Shown here piece by piece: positions 21,635 to 27,310 of a stretch of DNA of 27,310 bases. The notes below the pieces were generated by a model, which did no database searches, had not been told where the DNA came from, and saw nothing but the letters and a program-made list of their open reading frames with translations. Each line of letters opens with the position of its first letter. Position 1 is the first letter of the stretch. Both the position numbers and the translations under genes were made by a program. The stretch spans positions 1-27,310 of IMG/VR virus record IMGVR_UViG_3300030451_001569; one strand, written 5' to 3'. This stretch comes from a virus.

Positions 21635-23514
21635 TGGCTGAAGAACGTGGCTTGCAAAGTTTGGTTTCCCCTCGTCGCAGAACTGTGCGAGGCGAAGAAG
21701 CAAGAATGTTGGAAGCTCAACGTAAAAGGAGAGAACAGCTAGAGTCTCTGTATAATATGGAGAGGCCCAACATAGACTATGCACAAATGGCTGAAGATGT
21801 CTATGAGGGAATTAAAGGTATGGACACGATGGATCAGATTGCTCTGGCCACTGCACCTGTTCCTATTGTGGGGGATATTGCTGGTGGCATAGCAGATACC
21901 AGAACTCTTATTAATGAATTTGGGTTTGACCGCCAGACTGCCGCTAACTTAGGTTTTCTTCTTGCTGGCCTTGTTCCTTTTGTTCCTTCAGGAGGTGTAT
22001 TAAGGGCTGGAAGAGGAGCATACAAAGAGGCTGCACAAAAAGCTGCCACTAATTTAAAAAATAGAGTTCCTAATTTTTATGGACAGGGTGCTGGTCAGGC
22101 TCAAAAAGGAGCAGCTTTTGGCATGACTGTTCCAGAGGGATTGACAAATGTACTCAGAGCTAGATATGATCCTAAAGCTAAAGCTCTTCAAGAAAACTAT
22201 AACATTAGTGTGGCTGATCGAAAAGTGGCCCGGGATGCGCTTAAAATTACTGAGGAAAAAACTGCTGAGTTAAGACCCCTAGAGGCGCAGATGAGAGCTA
22301 TGAGAAAAGAGGGGAAGGTTGACACAGAAGAATTTGAAGCACTTGATAAAAAAGCAAAAGCTTTAAGGAAGGAGGCTAACACGGCTGCTAAAGTAGCTGT
22401 GGGTCAGGGTAATCAAACAAGAGCTATGACTAAACAATATTATGGCCCTGATACTGGTTTACAAGGTATTCATAAACTTTATGATCAAGTAGATCACATT
22501 AAAACTTTTAAAACTTTTAATGTAGATGATTATTTTAAAACAGTGGGTGATTTAGTTCCATCAGGCACGGGCAAAGAAGGAGTTGAAGAAATATTTAAAC
22601 AAATTAAAACTCTTCCTGCTATTGGTTACAATCCAAAGAAAAACTATCAGATGAATATAAGAAGGGTACACACAGGTTCAGCGGGAAAATTGGAGCAAAA
22701 GATAAGTCGTAGAATATTTTATAGTGATAAGATAGGTAAAAAAGGAAGAGCTAGTTTAGTAGATATAAAAAACTCAGTATTTTTAAGACATCCTACGAAA
22801 GCAAGCAAAGAAAAGAAACTTAAAGGATTTAATTCTGATAAAGAATTTTTAGAAGCACTTGATAAAACAGGTATTAAAATTTTAAATAGAGATGAAGTTC
22901 TTAAAGGTAAACCTGCTGTTATTACAGGAGATGGCACGACAGATGCTTATGAACTTGGTGGCGTTAATTACATGACTGCTATTTCTAAGCGAGGAAAGAT
23001 TACTCAGATTGTAAATGATGAGCATGATGTAATTAGCCGTAAAATTCCTAAAACAGATATTGAAGTGGGTAAGCTTCCCGGTGCTGATCGCTTTATGAAT
23101 GTATCTGAACCTATTGTTTATGACCTTATTAATCCTGCTAAAAAATCTACCGATATACAGAAGGACGCTAAAGCTGCGCTTAAAGCACAAAAAAAATCTG
23201 CTGAGTTGGCTGCAATAGAAGAGTATGAAAAAATTCCCGGTGTAAAAGTTAGAGAGTTTAATGAGAAGACTGGAAAGTATGAAGACTTACCAAAACCAAA
23301 GGGATTTAAAAGCCATGAACAGTGGGCCAGAGTGCAAGCAATAGCCAAGATACAGCCTGATCATCCTGATTATTCAAGGCTAATTAAAGACGCTACTATT
23401 GGCAGTCCTACAAGAGTTGTAAGAGCTTTGGAAGAGGATGAACAAAAAAATAAGAGGGGCGGTGGTTCTGTTATAGAGCGCAACCCCTATGACTACCCAT
23501 CAAGGAGTATCTAA
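21634..23514 (+). CDS. Tagged large protein, candidate ejected effector 1
   Basis: The 626-residue protein has four visible parts: a charged N-terminal helix (to about 65); a hydrophobic module (about 67-127, ATAPVPIVGDIAGGIAD then FLLAGLVPFVP); a long Lys/Glu-rich coiled-coil-like segment (about 195-255); and an unrecognised globular region (about 290-490, with GGVNYMTAISKRGKITQIVN). It ends in GGGSVIERNPYDYPSRSI, nearly the same tag as the next protein. I do not recognise an enzyme. The shared modules suggest a family of proteins packaged in the virion and delivered into the host, but it could equally be a structural protein. It starts and ends by TAATG overlaps. Confidence 0.75.
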   Translation: MAEERGLQSLVSPRRRTVRGEEARMLEAQRKRREQLESLYNMERPNIDYAQMAEDVYEGIKGMDTMDQIALATAPVPIVGDIAGGIADTRTLINEFGFDRQTAANLGFLLAGLVPFVPSGGVLRAGRGAYKEAAQKAATNLKNRVPNFYGQGAGQAQKGAAFGMTVPEGLTNVLRARYDPKAKALQENYNISVADRKVARDALKITEEKTAELRPLEAQMRAMRKEGKVDTEEFEALDKKAKALRKEANTAAKVAVGQGNQTRAMTKQYYGPDTGLQGIHKLYDQVDHIKTFKTFNVDDYFKTVGDLVPSGTGKEGVEEIFKQIKTLPAIGYNPKKNYQMNIRRVHTGSAGKLEQKISRRIFYSDKIGKKGRASLVDIKNSVFLRHPTKASKEKKLKGFNSDKEFLEALDKTGIKILNRDEVLKGKPAVITGDGTTDAYELGGVNYMTAISKRGKITQIVNDEHDVISRKIPKTDIEVGKLPGADRFMNVSEPIVYDLINPAKKSTDIQKDAKAALKAQKKSAELAAIEEYEKIPGVKVREFNEKTGKYEDLPKPKGFKSHEQWARVQAIAKIQPDHPDYSRLIKDATIGSPTRVVRALEEDEQKNKRGGGSVIERNPYDYPSRSI

Positions 23515-23516
23515 TG
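23502..23516 (+). promoter_or_regulatory. Ribosome-binding site encoded in C-terminal tag, with fused stop-start
   Basis: AAGGAG at 23502-23507 lies 6 bases before the ATG at 23514, within the codons for Arg-Ser-Ile and the stop. The same AAGGAGTATCTAATG occurs at 24476-24490. The tag's last residues and the next gene's translation start are thus encoded by the same bases. Confidence 0.85.
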
Positions 23517-24488
23517 GCTGAAGATCGAAATCTTTTAGAGAGAGCGCAAGACTATCTAGTCTCTGGAGATTTTGATAGGGATGCTAGGTATGTTCTTGGT
23601 CCGCATCTTAGTAAAGGTTTGTCAGGACTTGCTCAACTAATTGGTCCCGGTGCCGATATAAAGGCTGGAATGGATGAGGTTGAGAGAATAGTTCCATCTT
23701 TAAGAGAAGGCAATGTAACCGGCGCATTGGCTGCAACAGGACTCGCAGGGGCTACTCCTTTATTTATGGTGTCTCCCGGCTCCGCCAAAGAAGTACGACA
23801 AGTATCTCAAGAAGTTGTATCTCCTCTACGTCGTTTATTTGAAGATTTACCAGAAGAAACAAAACAGTCTTTACCAAAACAACCTAATGAAACAGGTTTA
23901 TATGGTTATCATGGTTCTTCAAAGGGTAGAGTAGAAAAAGAAGGTGAAGATTACTTTGATATAAAGTTTGGTAATCCTAACGATCAGTTTATGGGGGAAG
24001 GTTTTTATTTTACTATTAATCCTAAAGTAGCTGAAGAGTACGCTAATCTTAGAGCAACAAAAGATTTTCAACCAATGACTAGGCCAGACCCTAATAGACC
24101 GGGCAAAAGAAAAGATACAGGAGAATATATTAATCCTAAAACAAAAGAGAAAGCAACTTTAGCTTCACTAATGAGGGGTATTGACATAGAGGGTAATCCT
24201 CTTTTAGCTGGTCAGAATATATCTAGGTTTGATTTAGGTGGACTTAGGAAACCTTTTATAGTCAACAACAATAAACAAAGATTATATGCAAAAGAAAATA
24301 TTGAAAAACTTAAAGAAGAAGGTTATGACTCTATTATGTTTAGAGAGTTTGAAGATAGGTCACAACAGATATTAGTTTTTCCTGAACATATTAATAAGGT
24401 AGTTTTTAAGTACGCTGGAGGGCAGATAAAAAAAGGTGGCTCTGTAGTAGAACGTAATCCTTATAACTATTTACCAAGGAGTATCTAA
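23514..24488 (+). CDS. Tagged ADP-ribosyltransferase-like protein, candidate ejected effector 2
   Basis: The 324-residue product has an N-terminal hydrophobic module (about 38-90, IGPGADIKAGMDE then ALAATGLAGATPLF) similar to that of the previous protein. Residues about 129-300 look like a phage ADP-ribosyltransferase domain of the type found in polyvalent proteins: YHGSS (His133), MGEGFYFTINPKVAEEYA (Tyr165), then GYDSIMF and SQQILVFPEHI. The usual third catalytic Glu aligns with Gln285, giving H-Y-Q rather than H-Y-E. Such enzymes transfer ADP-ribose from NAD to host targets; activity here is uncertain because of the Gln. It ends with the tag GGSVVERNPYNYLPRSI. Start is fixed by TAATG and AAGGAG. 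Confidence 0.72.
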   Translation: MAEDRNLLERAQDYLVSGDFDRDARYVLGPHLSKGLSGLAQLIGPGADIKAGMDEVERIVPSLREGNVTGALAATGLAGATPLFMVSPGSAKEVRQVSQEVVSPLRRLFEDLPEETKQSLPKQPNETGLYGYHGSSKGRVEKEGEDYFDIKFGNPNDQFMGEGFYFTINPKVAEEYANLRATKDFQPMTRPDPNRPGKRKDTGEYINPKTKEKATLASLMRGIDIEGNPLLAGQNISRFDLGGLRKPFIVNNNKQRLYAKENIEKLKEEGYDSIMFREFEDRSQQILVFPEHINKVVFKYAGGQIKKGGSVVERNPYNYLPRSI

Positions 24489-26862: not shown

Positions 26863-27099
26863 ATGGCTGAAGCCAAAGATAATATTCCTGATAAAGAAAC
26901 GTATCAGGTTAATCGACGTAGAATGTGTTGGGTTGTTCTTGTAATGATGGCTGCTATGACTGTAGCTATCATAGGATGGCCGGAAAGATATCAGAATGCC
27001 AACGTAATGGAGATGGCATATCTGGCATTATCAGGTCTTGTAGCTGCATATTTTGGAGCAACTGCATTTCAGACAGCTAAAAAGGCTGTGAAAAAGTAA
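26863..27099 (+). CDS. Two-span membrane protein, holin-like
   Basis: The 78-residue product has two hydrophobic segments (about 22-39, MCWVVLVMMAAMTVAIIG, and about 50-70, AYLALSGLVAAYFGATAF) with short polar ends and a basic C-terminal tail (KKAVKK). This is the size and layout of class II holins, which would permit the endolysin at 21251 to reach the cell wall. AGGAG at 26851-26855 lies within the last codons of the previous gene, 7 bases before the ATG. It is the last plus-strand gene before the terminator. Holin role is likely but unproven. Confidence 0.75.
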   Translation: MAEAKDNIPDKETYQVNRRRMCWVVLVMMAAMTVAIIGWPERYQNANVMEMAYLALSGLVAAYFGATAFQTAKKAVKK

Positions 27100-27104
27100 A
27101 ATCC

Positions 27105-27213
27105 TCTGTATCAAGCTAGGAGCGTCATACAGAAGAATTAGTACCTTTCGGCTAGGTACATACCTGACGGGTTAGAGAAGGCTACTCAGTGGCTCTCCTA
27201 GCCCGTTTTTTTT
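27105..27213 (+). ncRNA. Structured RNA with competing folds at the end of the late operon
   Basis: The 112 bases after the holin-like gene hold several paired segments: GCTAGGAG (27115-27122) with CTCCTAGC (27195-27202), an exact 8 bp; CGTCA (27123-27127) with TGACG (27165-27169); GTACCT (27141-27146) with AGGTAC (27154-27159); and GCTAC (27181-27185) with GTGGC (27189-27193). Together these form a three-way junction in which the first two helices are directly adjacent. TCTGTAT (27105-27111) can instead pair with ATACAGA (27127-27133). The outer helix competes with the terminator stem. It could be a 3' UTR element, a stable small RNA or a switch; I recognise no known class. Confidence 0.6.
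27168..27213 (+). terminator. Intrinsic terminator of the late operon
   Basis: CGGGTTAG (27168-27175) pairs with CTAGCCCG (27198-27205) with one G-U pair, and the stem extends by AGA/TCT past a bulged C. Eight T residues follow (27206-27213). The T tract runs into the last bases of the convergent minus-strand gene, so it protects that gene from antisense transcription. On the minus strand there is no T run after the hairpin, so it appears to work in the plus direction only. Confidence 0.85.
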
Positions 27214-27310
27214 ACTCTACCAGTATGGATTTCCTCTCTTCACCGCCCTCAAACGGTTCTTCTGCATCGTCGCTATCATTTTCTTCAAATAGTGCATCAG
27301 CGAAGTCACA
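27212..27310 (-). CDS. C-terminus of a convergent gene with an acidic tail (partial)
   Basis: On the minus strand a frame is open from the window edge to a TAA at 27214-27212, encoding 32 residues: DFADALFEENDSDDAEEPFE then GGEERKSILVE. The acidic, disordered-looking end fits the C-terminal tail of a replication or DNA-binding protein, but it does not end in the DDDIPF-type tip of bacterial SSB. Another frame on the same strand is open to 27217 and gives a basic product; the acidic one is preferred by codon pattern (GAT, GAA). Convergent placement suggests an oppositely oriented gene module beyond the window. Confidence 0.5.
   Translation of the reverse strand, partial: CDFADALFEENDSDDAEEPFEGGEERKSILVE

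Follow-up and report, generated by a model that had tools for sequence, protein, structure and literature searches.

Phages CRP-901 and CRP-902 have been reported to lack an RNA polymerase gene and to depend on transcription by the host (PMC10149686). The sequence analysed here, a 27,310-base IMG/VR record that we call the window, comes from a marine phage that is lytic and of the HTVC023P / CRP-901 kind. Its structural and lysis genes all run in one direction, and its major head protein shares about 55% identity with that of Roseobacter phage CRP-902 and that of phage DSL-LC04, and 53% with that of Pelagibacter phage HTVC023P. Among the relatives tested, a T7-type RNA polymerase turned up only in an unrelated-looking outlier, G036. 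From this and the CRP-901/902 precedent one would expect the host polymerase to be used here, together with an intrinsic terminator. A minus-strand T7-type class II terminator, suggested by TTCTGTATG, was set aside because G036 alone has such a polymerase. Elsewhere in the window (23514–24488) a 324-aa protein shows a sub-threshold match to PF18760 (ADP-ribosyltransferase in polyvalent proteins; E 9e-7, 30.2 bits vs. a cut-off of 31.2).

The last late gene of the window (26863–27099, + strand) encodes a 78-aa membrane-type protein with a weak match to PHROG 14936 (unknown function). The sequence-only reading of this locus held that the gene beyond the terminator is convergent, and this is borne out: positions 27212–27310 (− strand) are the 3′ end of terS (terminase small subunit), with a C-terminus as in the 163-aa gene of L005, whose product matches Terminase_2 over its first 60 aa (E 5e-15). 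From the stop codon of the late gene to a T-run (27100–27213, + strand) extends a conserved non-coding element of about 110 nt. Relatives were gathered by protein search and DNA patterns, most of them from two close clades, and 27 distinct elements were aligned. Model R1 matches 33 of 37 records (31 of them strongly) with a single copy in each, and the element is found in about 30 uncultivated phage contigs. It begins at the stop codons of four different last genes. Their products are the 78-aa protein, a protein resembling NifU, a coiled-coil protein with the ending MHNGSHPPVPSERVGK and, in L126, another protein; the element is thus a feature of the locus, not of any single gene. The NifU-like domain protein is the last late gene product in L010 (L010:4238–4500; PF01106, E 8e-22), L076 and L313.

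The T-run (27206–27213, + strand) is read directly in the sequence and directly follows a stable hairpin (27166–27207, + strand, −24.4 kcal/mol) on the transcribed strand, the arrangement of an intrinsic terminator. This hairpin has been maintained through changes in both arms. The arms differ between clades, yet all 27 aligned sequences still form it; in L232 of clade 2 the two arms have changed jointly (AAGAGG/CCTCTT), and in L007 and L008 the 3′ arm differs yet still closes the hairpin (−25.3 kcal/mol). None of 120 simulations under a tree-based null with the window as root reached the observed terminator pairing (mean MFE −23.7 vs. −12.7), and the terminator's pairing and energy exceed all 240 tree simulations. 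In 27 of 27 aligned relatives the + strand forms a more stable hairpin than its complement does, and + strand G-U cells number 75 vs. 27 A-C cells, which together point to the + strand RNA as the selected form. We also note that the terminator 3′ arm that completes the stem in L007 (4226–4362) and L008 is non-homologous, and that the right half of the apex is gone there.

A more elaborate role had been proposed from the letters of the window, in which GCTAGGAG (27115–27122, + strand) and the terminator 5′ arm vie for the 3′ arm, giving a switch-like terminator with mutually exclusive folds, or in which GCTAGGAG forms a pseudoknot with hairpin 1 (5′ arm TCTGTAT, 27105–27111; 3′ arm ATACAGA, 27127–27133; both + strand). 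The pairings are all present and their coordinates all correct. GCTAGGAG is the exact 8-nt reverse complement of CTCCTAGC (27195–27202, + strand), which by sequence and folding is the part of the 3′ arm common to both proposed pairings; CTAGC at 27198–27202, inside this arm, also pairs within 27168–27175. Under mononucleotide shuffling, the 66 nt upstream contain an 8-nt complement to the 3′ arm with p = 0.0026, a value that takes no account of this pairing having been chosen among many possible ones, and the complementarity is retained in most of clade 1.

The energies speak against such switching. The segment does fold more stably than dinucleotide shuffles (z −3.8 for 136 nt, −5.0 for 114 nt), but the terminator contributes −24.4 of its −42.5 kcal/mol, i.e., most of the stability of the fold. 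The best fold with the competing helix reaches −31.2 kcal/mol, 11.3 kcal/mol worse than the terminator fold, and the pairing probability of that helix at equilibrium is about 2e-8. An attenuator would have two folds of comparable energy and a same-strand gene downstream; here the energies are far apart and the gene past the terminator is the convergent terS. During transcription, moreover, the local hairpin would be expected to form first.

Comparison with the relatives leads to the same conclusion. Under the window-rooted null, the observed pairing was reached in 81 of 120 simulations for hairpin 1, in 24 of 120 for the competing helix and in 25 of 120 for hairpin 2 (GTACCT...AGGTAC, 27141–27159, + strand), which occurs in the window's subclade only. 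When the tree is rooted on a clade-2 sequence, all these helices look enriched except hairpin 2 (4/120). That root does not form them, however, and a helix present in one clade and absent from the root would be expected to look enriched; for a helix proposed in the window, rooting on the window is the fair test. In L103 the upstream segment is altered (GATAGGAG) and its supposed partner is not, so that the competing helix is broken, and in clade 2 the upstream AAGGGGGTA is fixed while both terminator arms change together (as in L232) with no compensation. Pair-by-pair covariation with the tree null gave no pair with E < 1, the terminator included, there being too few changes per column. A further helix, CGTCA/TGACG (27123–27127 with 27165–27169), was dropped, with 56% of its cells paired. 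Thus, among the 27 relatives the terminator alone is maintained against the tree null, which is nearly the outcome (only the terminator stem conserved) that the sequence-only reading had itself named as counting against it. Hairpin 1 does no better than chance. Neither the pseudoknot nor switching between folds is supported; this reading is close to refuted and is in our estimate highly improbable. The stretch is an ordinary transcription stop at the end of marine phage late genes, not an RNA switch.

Two parts of the element are conserved as sequence far above the neutral expectation when the two clades are compared. The first is an upstream block, CAUACAGA..., which in the window reads CATACAGAAGAATTAG (27126–27141, + strand; clade 1 consensus CATACAGAAGRATYAG) and in which CATACAGA is nearly invariant; the second is the terminator apex, GGCUACUCAGNGG, within GGCTACTCAGTGG (27180–27192, + strand; GGCTACTCAGNGG). 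Between the clades, identity is 95% in the apex, 72% in the 16-nt block starting with CATACAGA and 49% in the stretch between the blocks, so sequence constraint of the sort seen in 3′-UTR-derived small RNAs lies outside the terminator stem. Position N of the apex GGCTACTCAGNGG is T, C or A, which breaks an inner A-U pair, and therefore it is the sequence itself that is kept and not the A-U pairing. The distance from CATACAGA to GGCTACTC is constant at 54 nt across the aligned members; in L313 it is 52 nt.

Could this be a plain terminator, its extra conservation due to recent common ancestry or local recombination, with nothing recognising the element? Most relatives do fall in two close clades and there are few changes per column, as such a reading would have it. 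However, fourfold-degenerate sites of the neighbouring gene are only 33% identical between the clades, near saturation, as against 95% for the apex, and L126 has an identical apex despite different arms. We therefore consider this explanation unlikely. A loop frozen between evolving terminator arms is a sign that something reads it, and a near-frozen loop and upstream block amid diverged DNA suggest that something recognises both, although the constraint on the blocks could equally act at the DNA level.

The reading we prefer, with a probability of roughly one half, is that a host-polymerase terminator ends the late operon and leaves a 3′-UTR with a conserved motif recognised in trans, with no switching between folds. 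Host RNA polymerase would stop at the late-operon terminator before running antisense into terS, and the ~110-nt 3′-UTR ending in the hairpin would accumulate as RNA. By analogy with 3′-UTR-derived small RNAs, a protein or another RNA may then recognise the accumulated RNA through the two blocks. In this respect the earlier suggestion of an RNA formed at the 3′ end of late transcripts holds in part: an intrinsic terminator ends the late operon and the conserved non-coding stretch may be an RNA, whereas the mutually exclusive fold proposed alongside it is not supported. Among phage translation starts in five genomes we found no recurrent base-pairing target. A more specific proposal, which we regard as possible and put forward tentatively, is that the element represents a new family of non-coding RNA carried by phages. 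This single-copy RNA of about 110 nt would bind a partner from the phage or the host through its CAUACAGA block and GGCUACUCAGNGG loop, and would compete for the locus with homing endonuclease genes.

The locus is indeed subject to turnover. In L016 (4241 onward) and in one of two alleles of G024, an HNH endonuclease gene stands in place of the element; the G024 head allele (L416:1–800) carries the HNH gene and the tail allele (the end of L418) carries the element. In both HNH alleles (G024 head and L016) the whole element and the terminator 5′ arm have been replaced. L313 (104–600) has the element intact to GGCTACTC, followed by unrelated sequence and another HNH endonuclease gene, and the L313 segment that was folded gave no clear terminator hairpin. 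L313 and L007 both diverge directly after GGCTACTC(A), and in L002, L004 and L008 a 110-aa nuclease-like gene follows the terminator. Nuclease genes have been reported to sit at boundaries of genetic exchange between phages (PMC10448857).

These replacements, the nuclease-like genes after the element and the shared divergence point are what one would see if the conserved blocks marked insertion points of HNH and PD-(D/E)XK-like endonuclease genes, that is, if they were homing-endonuclease targets. The nuclease families are matched weakly (below Pfam cut-offs), and a homing target accounts for the breakpoints and not for retention of the sequence in element-bearing phages. Homing targets are usually conserved for another reason, and we think it decidedly doubtful that homing is what maintains the blocks.

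The same turnover bears on whether the element is a site in the DNA next to terS, for packaging (pac or cos) or for terminase binding of another kind, with a terminator overlapping it. terS adjoins the element in clades 1 and 2, there is one copy per contig, GG-TA-G-like words are repeated in the element and several contigs end near it. A pac or cos site acts in cis and should be in every member; the element is absent from L016 and from the HNH allele of G024, variants that retain terS. These phages can thus do without the element, a point against its being an essential cis site of this kind. In addition, the adjacent gene is not terS in L126 and L346, near-complete contigs are opened elsewhere, the 99-bp terminal overlap of G033 is consistent with a circularised assembly, and the wobble pairs favour + strand RNA. 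The nearby contig ends are scattered and the break in G024 is explained by its two alleles, so a genome end or cos at this point was rejected. A packaging or terminase site is thus unlikely. The window end (27310) and the contig ends of L093, L118, L310 and L316 lie close to the element, at most a few hundred bases away and at scattered positions; such ends are probably due to allelic variation at the locus.

Other identities found no support. Rfam gave no match at the gathering cut-off (chance-level matches appeared only with lax settings), no tRNA or tmRNA was detected, and blastn against isolate phages gave no match to it. The sole match in bacterial genomes to the 20-mer GCGTCATACAGAAGRATYAG, in Paenisporosarcina (L406), was taken as chance. 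A short open reading frame through the element was rejected, as it is interrupted by stops in several members (the window, L103 and L315) and has no start codon. An integration site was also rejected, since 10 of the 11 records tested have no tyrosine integrase and the exception, G036, is a different phage.

We also note that the upstream block GCGTCATACAGAAGRATTAGG recurs without the apex in L343, L346 (11230–11420) and L356/L384, which share AGCGTCATACAGAAGRATTAGG followed by GGTAGGTT-like sequence, in a search for which about a hundred chance matches were expected. In L346 the element lies between convergent genes, near a holin resembling that of the window's relatives. Support for a wider family comes only from this synteny and from weak model scores (G036 and G037, E about 1e-4), and we treat it as a lead.

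Overall, the locus is real and conserved and mostly ordinary as a terminator, and the frozen loop is its unexplained part. Were the loop read by an RNA-binding partner, the element would define a new family of non-coding RNA in marine phages that are abundant and uncultivated; were the reader a DNA-binding protein (terminase, for example), a recognition site for this phage group would have been located. The switch reading can be put aside.

Among known systems, 3′-UTR-derived bacterial small RNAs likewise consist of a non-coding stretch after the last gene with conserved blocks and an intrinsic terminator at its end; the element here is a phage-borne candidate, with no conserved target found and no Rfam match. 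Terminator-antiterminator attenuators and riboswitches share with it an upstream segment complementary to a terminator arm, but the element sits after an operon and not before one, its competitor pairs with the 3′ arm, and its competing fold is too weak and is not maintained. With Rho-independent terminators it shares a hairpin rich in G+C, the T-run behind it, the position at the end of an operon and a convergent gene opposite. The loops of those terminators drift, whereas here the apex is conserved while the arms change.
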